This document shows, one piece after another, positions 216-6,816 of a stretch of 47,852 nt of DNA. A program made the translations under genes and the position numbers. The notes beneath the pieces are model-generated. The model did no database searches, was not told the origin of the DNA, and saw nothing but the letters and a program-made list of their open reading frames with translations. The stretch covers positions 1 to 47,852 of the forward strand of contig JAGBFX010000012.1 of assembly GCA_017936265.1 (NCBI GenBank), given 5' to 3'. Every line of letters starts with the position of its first letter. Position 1 is the stretch's first letter. The DNA is from Bacteroidaceae bacterium (GTDB taxonomy: Bacteria > Bacteroidota > Bacteroidia > Bacteroidales > Bacteroidaceae).

Positions 216-1400
216 CTAAATACAGTTCTTGAACGCATCACTTCCAATGCTTGTGACGCTGTTGGGGATTGTGACACTTGTAAGGCCAGAGCAACCAGAA
301 AACGCACTACTTCCAATGCTTGTAACGCTATTAGGGATTGTTATGCTTGTAAGCCCCCTACAGGAAGAGAACGCATCACTTCCAATGCTTGTGACACCGT
401 TGGGGATTTCAATACTTGCAAGCCCTGTGCAACCAGAGAACGCATCACTTCCAATGCTTGTGACGCTGTTGCCGATTGTTACGCGTGTAAGGCCAGAGCA
501 ACTTTTGAACGCATTTTCCCCAATGCTTGTTACATTATTGCCGATTGTTACACTCTTGAGTGTTTTTATATTATAAAATGGCGAATAACCATAGCTGGAA
601 GATGTGCCATAAGACAAGTCACGTCCTAAATACAATGTTTCCAATGGACAAACATAGAATAGCCCTTCATCATTAGTACTATTATATCTTAAAGACAATG
701 TCTCACCACCATCCTCAATGCGTAATTCTTTAAGGTTAGTGCAATCAAAGAACGCACTATAGCCAATGTTTGTCACGCTGTTAGGAATTGTGACACTTGT
801 AAGGCCAAAGCAATTAGAGAACGCATAATCCCCAATGCTTGTTACACTATTGCCGATTGTTACACTCTTGAGTGTTTCTATATTATAAAATGGCGAATAA
901 CCATATCTGGAACCTGCGTCATAAGATAAATTGCGGCCTAAATACAAAGTCTCCAATGGACAATCATAGAATAGTCCTTTACCAATTTCATAATAGTTAC
1001 TAGCATAATAATTATACCCTAAAGATAAAGTTTCATTTCCATCCTCAATGCGTAATTCTTTAAGGCTTGTGCAACCATCGAACGCACAATCTTCAATGCT
1101 TGTCACGCTGTTAGGGATTATTACGCTTGTAAGGCCAGAGCAATTATAGAACGCATCGCGTCCAATGCTTGTAACGGCATAAGTTATGCCATTGCTGATA
1201 ACTGATGAAGGGATATCAACTCTACCTGTATATTCATTTGAATAACTACTACAACTATTTCCTCTGTAAGTTACTTCAACAGTCTTTTCCTCTTCAGATA
1301 AAATATTGTAGTAAATCCCACCCACCTCAAAATCGTGGGCCATTGCAACTGTTGCAACCATCAACAGCAATGCAGTAAATAAGTGTTTTAATGTTTTCAT
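216..1400 (-). CDS. BspA-type leucine-rich repeat surface protein
   Basis: The protein (about 394 residues) has an N-terminal signal peptide (MKTLKHLFTALLLMVATVAMA) and then BspA/Treponema-type leucine-rich repeats of about 23 residues with the core SDAFSGCSGLTSVTIPNSVT. Two larger modules are duplicated inside it: each has LKELRIEDG, then ETLSL, a GLFYxCPLETLYLGR segment and a YGYSPFYNI segment. Family members are exported or surface proteins linked to adhesion and binding; the ligand here is unknown. ATG 1400 is chosen over ATG 1418 because it puts the signal peptide at the N-terminus. The protein stops abruptly after DAFKNCI, in the middle of a repeat, with no C-terminal sorting domain, so it may be truncated. 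The gene is more AT-rich than the core genes and follows the 153-residue gene closely, suggesting co-transcription. Confidence 0.88.
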   Translation of the reverse strand: MKTLKHLFTALLLMVATVAMAHDFEVGGIYYNILSEEEKTVEVTYRGNSCSSYSNEYTGRVDIPSSVISNGITYAVTSIGRDAFYNCSGLTSVIIPNSVTSIEDCAFDGCTSLKELRIEDGNETLSLGYNYYASNYYEIGKGLFYDCPLETLYLGRNLSYDAGSRYGYSPFYNIETLKSVTIGNSVTSIGDYAFSNCFGLTSVTIPNSVTNIGYSAFFDCTNLKELRIEDGGETLSLRYNSTNDEGLFYVCPLETLYLGRDLSYGTSSSYGYSPFYNIKTLKSVTIGNNVTSIGENAFKSCSGLTRVTIGNSVTSIGSDAFSGCTGLASIEIPNGVTSIGSDAFSSCRGLTSITIPNSVTSIGSSAFSGCSGLTSVTIPNSVTSIGSDAFKNCI

Positions 1401-1411
1401 AATTGTATTAT

Positions 1412-1873
1412 TTAGCATTGTTCATCTAGTACAATCTTTTCTATCTCTTTATCTATCATTGTTTTTATAGTTTCAAGACGCCAGTATAGGTATTTATCTT
1501 TTGATGTTATAACTTTTTTAAATGGGAAGTCTGAATATTCTGGAATTTTATAAATGTCTGACACGTCTAAGGATAATGCATATGCACAGAAGACATAATG
1601 TACTTCAACTTTATTGACACAGTTCTTCTCTTTATTGTTTATTATTGTTATATTAGATAATGTGACGTCACTATCTTTTTCAATTACATCAAAATACGCT
1701 AAAAATGCCACCTTGTCTCCATTATTCTTTACATATCTAACATAAGCATAGGACTGATTACCATATTCAGACATTTTCTTATTGTAAATCCCTGAATAAT
1801 TGTCCATTAATTTAAAAAGGCAATAACAATCTTCGTTGTCTGCTTTCTGTTCATGGTAAATATTTTCTTCCAT
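1412..1873 (-). CDS. Hypothetical protein, 153 residues
   Basis: I do not recognise this protein. It has no signal peptide or membrane segment, is rich in Lys, Asp, Asn and Tyr, and carries scattered Cys residues, so it is probably cytoplasmic. It lies directly upstream of the leucine-rich repeat gene on the same strand; the gap is 11 nt if that gene starts at ATG 1400. Base composition is AT-rich like that neighbour, and together they look like an acquired patch. It starts about 50 nt downstream of the terminator-like end of the structured RNA, so its transcription would need readthrough or its own weak promoter. Confidence 0.6.
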   Translation of the reverse strand: MEENIYHEQKADNEDCYCLFKLMDNYSGIYNKKMSEYGNQSYAYVRYVKNNGDKVAFLAYFDVIEKDSDVTLSNITIINNKEKNCVNKVEVHYVFCAYALSLDVSDIYKIPEYSDFPFKKVITSKDKYLYWRLETIKTMIDKEIEKIVLDEQC

Positions 1874-1920
1874 AACAAAAGGATTATCTCCCCCACCCGC
1901 TCCCTGAGCAAGGATTATAA

Positions 1921-2162
1921 CAAAAAGAAGGCGTGGGAACTTTGCTATTATTCAACTGAGGCTCTGGAATGCCCGTCATATATAATAAGCAAAGCCCACG
2001 CCGAATGTATGCAGTATACCAAGAACTGGTATATATACAACATTGACGTGGGCGTTTCTTGCTCATTATCCATATGACTTAAATTTTCCAGATTTCAGTT
2101 GAGGATAATTTTGCTAAACGCCCTATAACTAATATGTCTGCCAGTGAAGGCCATTCACTGAC
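1921..2162 (-). ncRNA. Candidate structured RNA or attenuator leader, about 240 nt
   Basis: On the minus strand a Bacteroidota promoter fires just upstream. The transcript would begin with a 7-bp hairpin (CAGTGAA/TTCACTG, 2160-2142). Four segments follow: 1 (about 2122-2090, GGGCGTTTAGC then ATTATCC), 2 (2071-2048, GGATAATGAGC then AAACGCCCACG), 3 (about 2010-1983, CGGCGTGGGCTTTGCTTATT) and 4 (about 1953-1929, AATAATAGCAAAG then CCCACGCC). Segments 1:2 and 3:4 can pair, or 2:3 and 1:4 can pair to give one imperfect hairpin of about 195 nt. Segment 4 is followed by TTCTTTTTG, so 3:4 looks like an intrinsic terminator. A 41-codon ORF (2073-1948, starts MDNEQETP) spans segments 2-4. It may be an independent RNA (the single long hairpin recalls 6S RNA) or an attenuating leader for the genes below. 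Confidence 0.55.
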
Positions 2163-2166
2163 AATG

Positions 2167-2198
2167 CAAAAGTAGTCAATAGGGGTCAAGAATGCAAG
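2167..2198 (-). promoter_or_regulatory. Bacteroidota-type promoter for the structured RNA
   Basis: On the minus strand TACTTTTG (2174-2167, followed by C) matches the -7 consensus TAnnTTTG. Exactly 20 nt upstream is CTTG (2198-2195), a one-mismatch -33 element (consensus TTTG). Transcription would begin near 2160, at the first hairpin of the RNA. Confidence 0.6.
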
Positions 2199-2334
2199 AA
2201 ACTATAAAAATTTAATTTTAGTGCTTGTATATCAGCTATTGACAACAAATATAGTCTAATAGACAGCAATGCGAGTTGTTGTTTTACAACTTTTTACAGC
2301 AAATGCACAAAAATTTTTAATTCCAGGCACCAGC

Positions 2335-2433
2335 ACATTGACAGCACTCGCTAACCGCGACCCACGCGGCACGAATTACTCCGTGCTACGCGTGACCAAT
2401 CGCTGCTCGCACTGTCGATGTTACAAGTAACAT
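2335..2433. repeat. Structured intergenic repeat, copy 1
   Basis: Outer arms ACATTGACAG (2335-2344) and CTGTCGATGT (2412-2421) pair with one mismatch. They enclose an inner hairpin with arms around CACGCGGCACG and CCGTGCTACGCGTG. Immediately after comes a small hairpin, ATGTTAC-AA-GTAACAT (2418-2433). Copies at 34751-34835 and 32785-32830 keep the same architecture with different paired bases. Confidence 0.65.
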
Positions 2434-3014
2434 TACACTTTTGTACCCCTCCGCCTTCGGCACCTCCCCTACAGGGGAGGAGTTTGTTACAACAAAGTGG
2501 CAACGGTTAGCATCGGTAATTCCAATGATAACCGGCACCGTTAAATTCCACAGTTTGAACCTGTTTGATTTTTGGAAAAAGTGCGAGGCCTGTTTGACCG
2601 CTAGTTACACGATTGCTTGCAAGCGGGTAACTGAGGGAGTCCCGCAGCACCCAAAAATCAACAGAAAGTTCAAGCGGCAAGACCTCTTTGACTGAAAGAT
2701 GTCGCTTGCGACTCTTGAACAAAAAAGAGGTAGACTGGAATTTCCGTGTGCCGGGACCTTTTGCGTACTTTTCAGTCATGAAAAGTATGTGATAGAACGA
2801 CAACAAGAAGAATAAACGACAACAGATTAAGGGTAAAACAAACCAAGGAATAACAGCTTTATTTAGTTGAGTTATTTCGTCCACACGAAATTTCTACTGA
2901 ACCAGCATCACTTATTTCAACAATTTTCCTCAAAAATCCATTTCTATTTGAATGAATTAATCTAAATTTACAAAAACTATACTCAGACTTATATATTAAC
3001 CAAAAGTAAAAGAT
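2434..3014. other. Non-coding spacer before hppA
   Basis: I see no convincing gene in these 580 nt. Open frames exist on both strands (for example 2441-2695 plus and 2884-2507 minus) but have no recognisable family, no start context and skewed composition. The stretch holds short inverted repeats (CTCCCCTACAGGGGAG near 2463) and resembles repetitive intergenic DNA. The final 100 nt are AT-rich and must contain the hppA promoter, but I see no strong TAnnTTTG match. Confidence 0.4.
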
Positions 3015-5216
3015 ATGGATTACAATGTTCTATTCTGGTTTGTGCCTGCGGCATCGTTGCTGGCACTTACCTTTGCCTGGTATTTCTACAGGCAGATGAA
3101 GAAAGAGAGTGAAGGTACCGAACGCATGGCATACATTGCCGAGGCAGTGCGTAAAGGTGCAATGGCTTATCTGAAGCAGCAGTACAAGGTTGTGACAATA
3201 GTATTTGTCTCTCTCGCACTGATTTTTGCCATTATGGCCTATGTATTCAAAATCCAGAACGAGTGGGTGCCTTTCGCATTCCTTACCGGTGGTCTCTTCA
3301 GCGGATTGTCGGGCTTTCTGGGCATGAAGACCGCTACATACGCATCGGCACGTACTGCCAACGCTGCACGCTCTTCAATGAACAGCGGTCTGCGCATGGC
3401 ATTCAGGAGCGGCGCTGTCATGGGCCTTGTTGTGGTAGGCCTGGGTTTGCTCGATATCTCGGTGTGGTATCTCATCCTTGACAGCTTTATTCCTGCCGAC
3501 ATTAACGACACCGGCATGAAACTGTGTATTATCACAACCACAATGCTTACATTCGGTATGGGTGCATCGACACAGGCCCTCTTTGCCCGTGTGGGTGGCG
3601 GTATTTACACAAAAGCCGCCGACGTTGGTGCCGACCTTGTTGGAAAGACTGAATACAACATCCCCGAGGATGACCCGCGTAACCCTGCCACCATTGCCGA
3701 CAATGTGGGCGACAATGTGGGCGACGTGGCCGGCATGGGCGCCGACCTGTACGAGAGCTATTGCGGCTCTATCCTCTCATCGGCAGCTCTTGGTGCCGCG
3801 GCCTTCGCTGCCGACGGTTCGGCAATGCAGACCAAGGCAGTCTTTGCTCCTATGCTCATTGCGGCAGTTGGTATAGTACTATCTATAATAGGTATATTCT
3901 CGGTTCGCACAAAGGAGAATGCCGACATCAAGAGCCTCATCGGTGCGTTGTCACGTGGTACAAACCTCTCTTCGCTGCTGATTGTAGCTGCCACATTCGC
4001 AATATTGTATATGCTTGGCATTGAGAACTGGGTTGGCTTGTCATTGGCAGTGGTTGTAGGTCTCTTGGTAGGTATCGTCATCGGCCGCTCTACCGAGTAT
4101 TACACATCACAGTCTTATGCTCCCACACGCAAGGTTTCCGAGGCCGGAAAAACCGGCCCTGCAACAGTAATCATCTCGGGTATGGGATTGGGCATGTTGT
4201 CAACAGCTATCCCTGTGCTCTCAGTAGTTGTGGGAATCATCCTGTCTTACCTGCTTGCTACAGGCTTTGAGCTTGGTGCCGAGCATGTATCTTTGGGTCT
4301 GTACGGTATTGCCATTGCATCGGTAGGTATGCTCTCTACATTGGGTATCACATTGGCTACAGATGCTTACGGCCCTATCGCCGACAATGCCGGCGGTAAC
4401 GCCGAGATGAGCGGTCTTGAGCCTGAGGTACGCCGTCGTACCGATGCGCTCGACTCGCTGGGCAACACTACAGCCGCTACAGGCAAGGGGTTTGCAATCG
4501 GTTCAGCAGCGCTCACTGCACTTGCCCTTCTTGCATCATACATTGAAGAGATAAGGATTGCTCTGGAGCGCACCAACCCCGATGTGCTTATCAACGGCAA
4601 GCCTCTCATGAGTGCAAACATCGTGGACTTCATGCACTATTATGACGTGACCCTGATGAATCCTATGGTGCTTTGCGGTATCTTTGTAGGTGCAATGATG
4701 TCGTTCCTGTTCTGCGGTCTTACAATGAATGCTGTGGGTCGTGCTGCACAGAAGATGGTATCTGAGGTACGCCGCCAGTTCAGCGAAATCAAGGGTATCC
4801 TCGAAGGAAAGACCGAGCCCGACTACTCTCGCTGCGTAGAGATTTCGACACGCGGTGCACAGCAGGAGATGATACTTCCTTCACTGCTCGCCATTGCGGC
4901 TCCAATCATCACAGGTGTGGTACTTGGCGTTCCTGGTGTCATTGGTCTTCTTATCGGTAGCTTGTCATCGGGATTCCTGTTGGCAGTATTCCTTGCCAAT
5001 GCCGGAGGTGCATGGGACAACGCGAAGAAATATGTCGAGGAGGGTAACTTCGGCGGCAAGGGCAGCGACACGCACAAGGCTACCGTTGTAGGCGACACTG
5101 TCGGCGACCCATGCAAGGATACATCGGGACCGAGCCTTAACATTCTTATTAAGCTTATGAGCATGGTAGCCATTGTTATGGCAGGCCTGACTCTTGCATT
5201 TAACCTGATAGGATAA
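3015..5216 (+). CDS. hppA: Membrane-bound ion-pumping pyrophosphatase, K+-dependent type
   Basis: This 733-residue polytopic membrane protein hydrolyses pyrophosphate and uses the energy to pump H+ and/or Na+ across the cytoplasmic membrane. The substrate-site motif [11 protein letters not shown] starts at about residue 203, and the Mg-PPi-binding stretch [19 protein letters not shown] starts at about 219. A second Asp-rich site near the C-terminus ([15 protein letters not shown]) is also intact. [10 protein letters not shown] at 483-492 has Ala where K+-independent enzymes have Lys, marking the K+-stimulated class. Members of that class from Bacteroides have been reported to move both Na+ and H+, so the coupling ion cannot be fixed from sequence alone. 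Length is normal. The gene is monocistronic, with a strong terminator 50 nt downstream. Confidence 0.97.
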
Positions 5217-5265
5217 GTATTACACAGAGGTCTGTAAATACACAGGCTTTTCAACAAACCTATAG

Positions 5266-5304
5266 TGGGTGTATCAAAAAATAATTTGATACACCCACAT
5301 TTTT
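5266..5304 (+). terminator. Intrinsic terminator of hppA
   Basis: A perfect 13-bp stem (TGGGTGTATCAAA / TTTGATACACCCA, loop AATAAT... 6 nt) is followed by CATTTTTAT. It lies between hppA and cyuA. Confidence 0.85.
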
Positions 5305-5349
5305 ATAAAAAAAGAGTACCTTTGAAGTCGACATAAACAGAAAACAGTT

Positions 5350-6636
5350 ATGCTTCCGATAGAAACACGAAACGAGATTATAGGATTACTGAAACGAGAG
5401 GTTGTACCCGCAATGGGATGTACCGAGCCTGTTGCTGTGTCGTTGTGTACGGCCAAGGCTGTGGAGATTCTGGGTTGCGTGCCACAGCGCATTGAAGTAA
5501 GACTCAGCCCTAACGTGCTGAAGAACGCTATGGGAGTAGGAATCCCGGGCACAGGAATGGTAGGCTTGCCCATAGCCATAGCTCTTGGCGCATTGGTAGG
5601 ACGCAGTGAATATAGCCTGGAGGTACTGAAAGATACCACACCGCAGGCTGTGGAACAAGGAAGACGCATGATTGAGGAGAAGCGCATAAACGTATCCCTC
5701 AAAGAGGGCGCATGCGACGTGCTGCACATTGAGGTCGAGGCGGCAACCGACACCGACAGGGCTGTTGCCGTAATATCGGGCAGCCATACGAACTTCGTAT
5801 TCCTGCAGCGTAACGATGAGGTGCTTCTGGACAACAACAGAGCGAAAGACGCTGTCAGTGAAAATGCAGCAGATGTAGAGCTATCTATGCGCAAGGTATG
5901 GGAATTCGCGATGGAGTCTCCCGTAGAGGAGCTATCCTTTATCCTCGAGGCACGCCGGTTGAACAAGAATGTTGCCGAGGAATCGCTCAAAGGCGAGTGG
6001 GGACACTGCCTTGGCCGCATAATAAGCGGTGATGCACGCAACAAGGTCTTCGGAGATACAGTATTCACAAGAATGGTCTCTTACACCTCGGCTGCATGTG
6101 ACGCACGCATGGGCGGTGCACAGATGCCGGTCATGAGCAACTCGGGTAGCGGTAATCAGGGCATAGCATCTACACTCCCTGTTGTCGTATATGCCGAGGA
6201 GACAAAAGCGTCAGAAGAAAGCCTTATACGCGCCTTGGTACTGAGCCACCTCACCGTTGTATACATCAAGCAGAGCCTTGGCCGTCTGTCGGCCCTGTGC
6301 GGATGCGTTGTTGCTTCAACAGGTTCCAGTTGCGGTATAACATACCTGATGGGCGGCGGATATGATGAGGTTGCAATGGCTGTAAAGAACATGGTTGCCA
6401 ACCTTACCGGTGTCATCTGTGACGGTGCCAAGCCAAGCTGCGCTCTCAAGCTTGCGAGTGCGGTATCCACCGCAATGTTCTCATCTGTCATGGCAATGGA
6501 GCACCATTGCGTGACATCACTCGAGGGCATTGTCGATGATGACGTGGACAAGTCGATAAGAAACCTGACATCTATCGGTTCTCAAGGCATGCAGCAGACC
6601 GACAAGATGATTCTTTCAATTATGACAAACAAGTAA
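5350..6636 (+). CDS. cyuA: L-cysteine desulfidase family protein (UPF0597/CyuA)
   Basis: The protein (428 residues) matches the UPF0597/YhaM family, whose characterised members are L-cysteine desulfidases: [4Fe-4S] enzymes that break cysteine into pyruvate, ammonia and sulfide. It begins with the family signature AMGCTEPVAVSLCTAKA (residues about 20-36). It keeps conserved Cys residues in the C-terminal half (GVICDGAKPSCALK, SSCGITYLMGG, LCGCVVAS) that are candidate cluster ligands, and a Gly-rich segment NSGSGNQGI. No signal peptide or membrane segment is present, so it is cytoplasmic. A -7 element TACCTTTG lies at 5317-5324, just after the hppA terminator, so the gene likely has its own promoter. 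Serine deamination is a possible alternative substrate activity. Confidence 0.88.
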   Translation: MLPIETRNEIIGLLKREVVPAMGCTEPVAVSLCTAKAVEILGCVPQRIEVRLSPNVLKNAMGVGIPGTGMVGLPIAIALGALVGRSEYSLEVLKDTTPQAVEQGRRMIEEKRINVSLKEGACDVLHIEVEAATDTDRAVAVISGSHTNFVFLQRNDEVLLDNNRAKDAVSENAADVELSMRKVWEFAMESPVEELSFILEARRLNKNVAEESLKGEWGHCLGRIISGDARNKVFGDTVFTRMVSYTSAACDARMGGAQMPVMSNSGSGNQGIASTLPVVVYAEETKASEESLIRALVLSHLTVVYIKQSLGRLSALCGCVVASTGSSCGITYLMGGGYDEVAMAVKNMVANLTGVICDGAKPSCALKLASAVSTAMFSSVMAMEHHCVTSLEGIVDDDVDKSIRNLTSIGSQGMQQTDKMILSIMTNK

Positions 6637-6677
6637 TTTAACGTGAATTCAATATAAACTCAACCAAATCGCGTAAC

Positions 6678-6756
6678 TGTCATCCTGACAAAGCGAAGCG
6701 GCGGAAGGATCTCTGCACCCATTCTATAGAGATGCTTCACTATGTTCAGCATGACA
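6678..6756. repeat. ATGACA-ending hairpin repeat, copy 1
   Basis: Outer arms TGTCATCCTGA and TCAGCATGACA, and inner arms GAAGGATCTCT and AGAGATGCTTC, each pair except for one central mismatch, giving a long imperfect hairpin. Related sequences are at 24192, 31329, 34698 and 39681. Confidence 0.6.
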
Positions 6757-6816
6757 AAAATGCTTTAGACAACACTTATATCGAACTCACGTTAATTTCA
6801 GTTTAGAATCAAGCAC

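Follow-up and report, generated by a model that had tools for sequence, protein, structure and literature searches.

The described systems closest to the RNA analyzed here are trp-type amino-acid attenuators, 6S RNA, UpxY/RfaH-type leaders, integrons, and structured RNA motifs computed from Bacteroidetes genomes. In UpxY/RfaH-type antitermination, termination is overcome in the 5′ leaders of accessory loci; an integron head, in turn, consists of a promoter, attI, and cassettes. Among the computed motifs, Flavo-1 is presented in PMC9723704 as a structured, multicopy motif of unknown function, some copies of which lie 5′ of diverse genes, with matches reported in either orientation. We analyzed a 47,852-nucleotide stretch of DNA (the window) from a Bacteroidaceae bacterium (GenBank assembly GCA_017936265.1, contig JAGBFX010000012.1), a short segment of which had been predicted from its letters alone to encode a four-segment switchable RNA. 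This RNA is one member of a multicopy RNA family ahead of unrelated accessory genes in Bacteroidota. The reading that we prefer, with a probability of roughly 0.55, is that the RNA is a cis-acting bistable 5′ leader that would set read-through from its own promoter into the accessory gene behind it, and that would serve as the common head of an exchangeable gene slot.

On the minus strand, positions 2197-1871 of the window comprise a promoter, a 5′ hairpin, a core of approx. 200 nt, a U-tract, and a second hairpin, and end on the start codon of the gene for a 153-aa protein (Table 1). The promoter, the 5′ hairpin, segments 1-4, and the U-rich end of the original prediction were all located in the sequence; the four-segment RNA exists, but its extent had been drawn too small, and it now runs on through the second hairpin to the start of the 153-aa gene. 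The TTG-N20-TACTTTTG element presumably belongs to the Bacteroidota promoter type, an assignment made by consensus, and 73 of 80 copies have a TAnnTTTG-like box 18-60 nt upstream of the core (a raw count). The 5′ hairpin region folds better than mononucleotide shuffles (mean z of -2.0 over 73 copies, with z < -1 in 79%) and shows no sequence conservation among the aligned copies, and the hairpin after the U-tract carries a GGGAA-type loop that is conserved among them. Both genes named in the prediction, encoding a 153-residue protein and a leucine-rich repeat protein, stand behind the leader; the former has no match in Pfam. The window leader segment is overlapped by no tRNA gene and by no Rfam family at gathering score. 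A scan of window positions 1800-2300, which concerns the window copy only, found no tandem repeats; as no ToxN-like family was present among 71 first genes either, a type III toxin-antitoxin system (ToxI leader) was rejected.

Table 1. Features of the leader copy and of the genes behind it (window coordinates)
Feature	Position	Strand	Sequence, partner, or remark	Basis
Bacteroidota-type promoter-like element	2167..2197	-	TTG 2197-2195, N20 spacer, TACTTTTG 2174-2167	sequence
5′ hairpin near the putative transcript start	2140..2162	-		folding
Segment 1	2112..2123	-	GGGCGTTTAGCA; partner is segment 2 or 4	pairing counts over copies
Segment 2	2045..2063	-	AGCAAGAAACGCCCACGTC; partner is segment 1 or 3	pairing counts over copies
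Segment 3	1989..2002	-	GGCGTGGGCTTTGC; partner is segment 2 or 4	pairing counts over copies
Segment 4	1930..1945	-	GCAAAGTTCCCACGCC; partner is segment 3 (terminator form) or 1 (rod)	pairing counts
Early hairpin	2066..2108	-	TTATCC 2108-2103 : GGATAA 2071-2066; incompatible with the rod	
Central rod element	2087..2092	-	TCTGGA; partner TCCAGA 1968-1963	96% of cells paired
U-rich tract	1922..1929	-	67 of 71 copies have 6 or more T in the 10 nt that follow the stem (mean 7.1)	
Hairpin-like stretch 3′ of the U-tract	1889..1912	-	GGGAGC 1904-1899 can pair with GTTCCC 1940-1935 of segment 4	
First gene, 153-aa protein	1412..1873	-	start codon 1873-1871	
Second gene, 400-aa BspA-type leucine-rich repeat protein (LRR_5)	216..1418	-		
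41-codon ORF of the original prediction	1948..2073	-	present in the window copy, not conserved	

When 44 genomes of the window's genus were searched at the DNA level, diverged relatives of approx. 220 nt were found, several per genome in some cases, and the leader is also carried by plasmid records of Bacteroides finegoldii and Parabacteroides distasonis. In an alignment of 29 copies, the elements follow the order TAnnTTTG-like promoter, variable stretch, GACATATT, core, U-tract, second hairpin (its loop being of the GGGAA type), and start codon. Scanning genome contigs with a pattern yielded 66 stretches, 64 of them (several from the same genomes) labeled as Bacteroidales groups and two labeled as Clostridium/Clostridia MAGs, which may be misbinned. 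Model R1, the distribution figures of which may be low because it was built on an RNAalifold consensus of 34 pairs with part of the rod (see below) missing, matched 40 of the 44 genus genomes at E ≤ 1e-3 (16 of the 44 score above 100 bits). In the family, 184 of the 301 genomes searched were matched at E ≤ 1e-6; at E ≤ 1e-10, the searches of the order and of the phylum gave 50 of 198 and 10 of 296 genomes, respectively. The 10 include the window's own genome and nine others of the window's class, in which the family extends to further families. Among cultured Bacteroides, B. faecis MAJ27 has 11 matches and B. congonensis has 15. The model also yields weak antisense matches on the palindrome, and the matches in a genome, up to 17, include at least one that is antisense of another. 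The 174 profile matches reduce to 96 unique copies that span 150 or more positions of the profile, and 80 of these score at least 110; 77 copies have full flanks, and 71 are non-redundant (below 90% identity). Later sets comprise 105 and 111 unique copies and 102 non-redundant ones. Reading of 27 distant matches by eye showed that the core motifs are kept; among these divergent copies, a promoter-like box lies within 75 nt in 17, and the first ATG ORF (at least 30 aa) begins at 50-68 nt in 13. Two divergent copies reside in the window's own genome, both on the minus strand (L212:1593-1794 and L213:1430-1632, on contigs C59 and C44), the L213 copy 51 nt before a 332-aa ORF.

The window and seven relatives gave no match to Rfam 15 at gathering score, and cmscan of the window region (E up to 5) and of 17 of the 27 divergent loci (E up to 1) returned only matches far below gathering, among them a chance-level match of MIR869 on the apical part of the window copy (15.5 bits against a gathering score of 330). 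Flavo-1 was not matched in either of these cmscan searches, at the same E values. As far as Rfam 15 and the literature found can show, the leader RNA family is apparently undescribed; of the 3161 candidate RNAs reported in PMC8040213, an unnamed entry could be this family. The likeness to 6S RNA that had been pointed out earlier is rejected. A 6S-like regulator of RNA polymerase would account for the long hairpin of similar size, but the family occurs in several copies per genome, usually linked to a gene that it precedes, and RF00013 was found neither in the window at gathering score, nor in the region at E up to 5, nor in the window's own genome (0 matches, with 5 of 14 control genomes matched), so that we regard the probability of such a regulator as close to negligible.

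The minimum free energy (MFE) structure of the window copy is an imperfect hairpin of approx. 195 nt (the rod), in agreement with the single long hairpin of the original prediction. On the transcript strand, the MFE is -91.8 kcal/mol, compared with -55.0 (sd 4.0) for 200 dinucleotide shuffles (z of -9.2; none of the 200 as good), and folding of the opposite strand is less extreme (z of -5.8). When 71 non-redundant copies were compared with a tree-based covariation null (60 simulations), seven column pairs exceeded all null values. All seven belong to the rod and are paired in at least 90% of cells, and six occur in all four Watson-Crick types. On alignment A1 (28 distinct rows), 88% of the rod cells are paired, with 132 double-change cells, and neither any of 500 shuffles, which ignore relatedness, nor any slid version gave counts as high. 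By eye, the central loops TCTGGAC/GTCCAGA are replaced in divergent copies by TCTCGAC/GTCGAGA, TCTCTAC/GTAGAGA, or CGCCAA/TTGGCG. Two proposed pieces of the rod were not above shuffles: the value for TTAT:ATAA was reached by 50 of 200 and that for the outer apical helix by 149. One leader (L040:3326-3531) appears to be a mosaic, with a 5′ half of the AATCGCC type, a 3′ half of the GTCCAGA type, and mismatched central loops.

The alternative fold is paired in 96% of cells on the same alignment and has 32 double-change cells, counts that likewise were reached by none of 500 shuffles (again ignoring relatedness) and by no slid version. The early hairpin, TTATCC:GGATAA, is paired in 99% of cells, with 18 double-change cells. 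An early helix of at least 6 bp can form in all 27 divergent copies, compared with 26% of shuffled middles, and its partners are changed there, for example, to TTATTATTCTTG/CGAGAATAATAA and ATTACCTC/GAGGTAAT; it is missing from the full-length MFE of 26 of the 27, and in approx. 7 of them (L207, L214, L215, L221, L222, L223, and L230, by eye) the longest early helix lies off the TTATCC:GGATAA register. The two parts of 3:4 are paired in 100% and 92% of cells. No pair of the alternative passed the strict tree-based covariation test, and its support comes from helix-level counts and the divergent copies; moreover, since segments 2 and 4 are alike, as are segments 1 and 3, the rod itself entails some of the pairing of 1:2 and 3:4. 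G-U pairs outnumber A-C mismatches in both folds (rod, 424:114; alternative, 211:10), which identifies the transcript strand as the folded strand. The earlier proposal of a switchable RNA with mutually exclusive pairings has thus gained covariation support on both sides, from the tree-based test for the rod and from helix counts for the alternative. From these comparisons of sequence, we read the RNA as having two competing folds, both apparently under selection.

Forcing the 1:2 and 3:4 form on the window core costs approx. 12 kcal/mol (-66.6 against -78.7), and over 71 copies the rod is on average approx. 10 kcal/mol more stable than the forced alternative. As the rod wins at equilibrium in 67 of the 71, the terminator form would need to arise kinetically or be stabilized by a factor; it may also be transient or rare, since the full-length MFE holds 3:4 in just one or two of 71 copies. 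In MFE folding of growing transcripts, 1:2 is present after segment 2 in 70 of 71 copies and the early hairpin in all 71, and after segment 3, 2:3 is present in 69 and 1:2 in 13, which gives the order 1:2 with the early hairpin, then 2:3, then the rod. The 1:4 helix, found in the MFE of 55 of 71 copies, abuts the U-tract, and because this short helix stands against the tract, the rod need not be a clean read-through form.

We infer termination, read-through, and a signal from these features, and the bistable leader might work as follows. The rod is composed of 1:4, the central helices, and 2:3, and the alternative of the early hairpin, 1:2, and 3:4. During RNA synthesis, 1:2 and the early hairpin would form first. 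Emerging segment 3 could then capture segment 2, upon which the rod would zip up and leave AGUUCCC of segment 4 free; polymerase would read through, and AGUUCCC would dock on the loop of the next hairpin. By the other route, segment 3 would stay free and pair with segment 4, and the strong hairpin so formed right before the U-tract would end transcription. A factor or condition that stabilizes or delays one of these steps would set the outcome.

The contact beyond the U-tract involves AGTTCCC of segment 4, which is unpaired in the rod and available for pairing with the loop of the hairpin that follows. The longest Watson-Crick run between segment 4 and this loop averages 5.4 in 78 copies, compared with 4.0 for shuffled downstream sequence, and 4.9 in 37 divergent copies, compared with 3.8. 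Runs of at least 5, some of them in another register, are found in 57 of the 78 and 19 of the 37 copies, and 21 of the 78 have no Watson-Crick run of 5; the partners change together, as in AGTTTCC/GGAAACT, CGAGCCT/AGGCTCG, and GTGCCT/AGGCAC. In the alignment, the stem of the hairpin is ill defined, with 64% pairing at fixed columns and 61% when slid by one. Three distant copies (L208, L228, and L231) have no loop partner and possibly form a separate subfamily; no ORF start was found near L208 and L228. The segment-4:loop contact may govern read-through; formed after synthesis of the U-tract, it cannot itself prevent termination. A covarying contact that exists only in read-through RNA also suits a structured 5′ UTR acting post-transcriptionally, in which the rod and the contact would control how stable the mRNA is or how well ribosomes reach it, with a minor part for the U-tract hairpin. 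The near-constant distance to the start codon and the rod being the MFE structure point the same way; against it stand the U-tract, which 67 of 71 copies have behind segment 4, and the near-complete pairing of 3:4, which the rod does not need. On balance, we consider such a UTR unlikely.

The distance from the core to the first ATG, counted for ORFs that are at least 40 aa long or reach the end of the sequence, is 40-62 nt in 57 of 100 non-redundant copies and 160-219 nt in 12 more; a control on the opposite strand upstream had 1 of 98 at 40-62 nt. The first genes behind the leader are mutually unrelated: among 71, LRR_5 was matched nine times, Lipocalin_4 and TerB three times each, other non-LRR families once or twice each, and many had no match. 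These 71 genes share no common pathway and are not biosynthetic. Attenuation had been expected to go with synteny to the same downstream genes, an expectation that fails here, and the lack of relationship between the genes points to a leader that serves many different ones. The window pair, a small protein followed by a BspA-type LRR protein, has counterparts at L043 and L132 in which the small protein is a different one, and small cargo of the TerB-like, small membrane protein, and MAFWN types recurs in different genomes (L156, L049, and L090; L161, L107, and L152; L093, L080, and L134). Anti-phage defense was rejected as a cargo theme, with only scattered matches (JAB, E1-E2, and three PDC families; 1 of 71 members per model).

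What had been called the logic of an amino-acid attenuator is retained in part: a promoter-driven leader, exclusive pairings, and a terminator-like form precede the 153-aa gene, but the leader ORF and the biosynthetic genes do not hold. The 41-codon ORF, whose translation had been proposed to decide between the structures, does cover segments 2 to 4 in the window copy; its start (ATGGAT/ATGGGT) is present in 15 of 80 copies, the frames range from 4 to 51 codons, and no peptide is common to them. Control by its translation is therefore dismissed, and an attenuator driven by this ORF, which would also be at odds with downstream genes that are not biosynthetic, is scarcely credible. A riboswitch or protein-bound leader with one ligand and a single regulon is a special case of the bistable leader and not its opposite. 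Conserved unpaired motifs, such as GACATATT before the core, and the conserved core itself would fit it, as would the one copy that heads a NusG-family gene, but the downstream genes are linked by no pathway, and we judge it very unlikely. The copy in question (L098:680-1300, plus strand) comes from a Prevotellaceae MAG with 16 R1 matches, four of them antisense of others; the NusG-family gene might encode a trans-acting factor, and the ORF that follows it may resemble LytTR regulators.

Homology between loci often stops at the 3′ edge of the leader. In two Prevotella MAGs (L177 and L176), the leader and the approx. 2.2 kb before it are 98% identical, followed by 2.8 kb and 1.1 kb of differing sequence and then by 6.3 kb at 96% identity. 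In the window's genus (L187 and L188), 4.9 kb up to the U-tract are 96% identical and the gene behind differs, one of the contigs ending there; at L095, L155, and L075, the shared part stops within a few bases of the start codon. Counterexamples with both sides shared are L091/L061, L094/L089, and L191/L192. Beside the same H+-PPase gene, a relative (G023) matches window positions 2334-2438 and 2902-6808, with nothing of positions 1-2333 in the 1.6 kb of contig remaining there. In 86 copies, the sequence available upstream spans 1 kb or more; directly upstream of the leader, 16 of them carry a gene for a small tyrosine or serine recombinase and 2 a fragment of one, often together with DUF3871, and 68 have neither recombinase type within the upstream stretch searched. 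An upstream module of DUF3871 and a tyrosine (195 aa) or serine (211-212 aa) recombinase, found at L062, L101, L155, L075, L067, and others, ends approx. 90-460 nt before the leader core. A search of 18 loci for repeats of the leader region elsewhere gave only matches of 11-16 nt, the best (E of 0.002, at L155) being upstream and not behind the cargo; no clear repeats were found behind the cargo in these loci. At L101, L062, and L108, a common terminator-like sequence closes the cargo region despite different cargo. A phage element was rejected: the phage collection gave no match, and viral_contigs gave none for one strict exact pattern; the window copy does not fit this pattern, and only that form is excluded.

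Exchange at this edge, together with the recombinase genes or fragments adjoining 18 of the 86 copies, could mean that the palindrome is a mobile DNA element or recombination site (a MITE or an integron-like head) and the RNA fold a by-product. Such an element leaves the strand asymmetry of G-U over A-C, the promoter-like box, and the start-codon spacing unaccounted for, and the 68 copies without either recombinase type and the short matches at 18 loci also speak against it; we consider it improbable. The recombinases may move the cargo, but homologous recombination through the leaders would serve equally well, and L040 has the look of a mosaic. The preferred reading, the bistable leader, takes in the exchange as well: with many unrelated genes swapped at the 3′ edge of one and the same leader, the leader would act as their common control head. 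More tentatively, and with somewhat less than even odds, a Bacteroidota-wide RNA switch may put many unrelated, horizontally exchanged genes under one shared signal, conveyed by a trans-acting factor or a metabolite. If so, a newcomer gene behind the leader would inherit the same RNA gate, and the phylum would possess an RNA-gated expression slot for accessory genes. The family is in any case a large structured RNA of a major gut phylum, without a match in Rfam 15 and with covariation support for two competing folds, and it ties RNA switching to the exchange of genes for surface LRR proteins, lipoproteins, and many small proteins. Cargo differs behind near-identical leaders in close relatives, and the behavior of one copy would bear on the expression of many accessory genes.

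Several described systems share parts of this arrangement. Like 6S RNA (RF00013), the leader forms a long imperfect hairpin of similar length, but it occurs in several copies per genome and ahead of a gene. Flavo-1 and other computed Bacteroidetes RNA motifs are likewise many-copy structured motifs located partly 5′ of diverse genes; compared with the Flavo-1 matches reported in either orientation, the leader family differs in lying ahead of genes on the same strand. With UpxY/RfaH-type leaders, it has in common the position 5′ of accessory loci and, in the L098 copy, a NusG-family gene, whereas no general linkage to NusG paralogs was seen and the RNA fold is much larger. Trp-type attenuators have a promoter, exclusive 1:2/3:4 versus 2:3 pairing, and a terminator-like hairpin before the gene, as does the leader; in the latter, however, the peptide of the 41-codon ORF is not conserved, the downstream genes are unrelated, 2:3 extends into a rod of approx. 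195 nt closed by 1:4, and an extra loop contact lies past the terminator. Integron heads and other cargo-slot systems resemble the family in their constant head with a promoter, their exchangeable gene, and, in a subset, an adjoining recombinase gene. In contrast to integrons, the leader family has shown no cassette array and no clear repeat behind the cargo (18 loci), and it places a transcribed, structured leader between the promoter and the gene.
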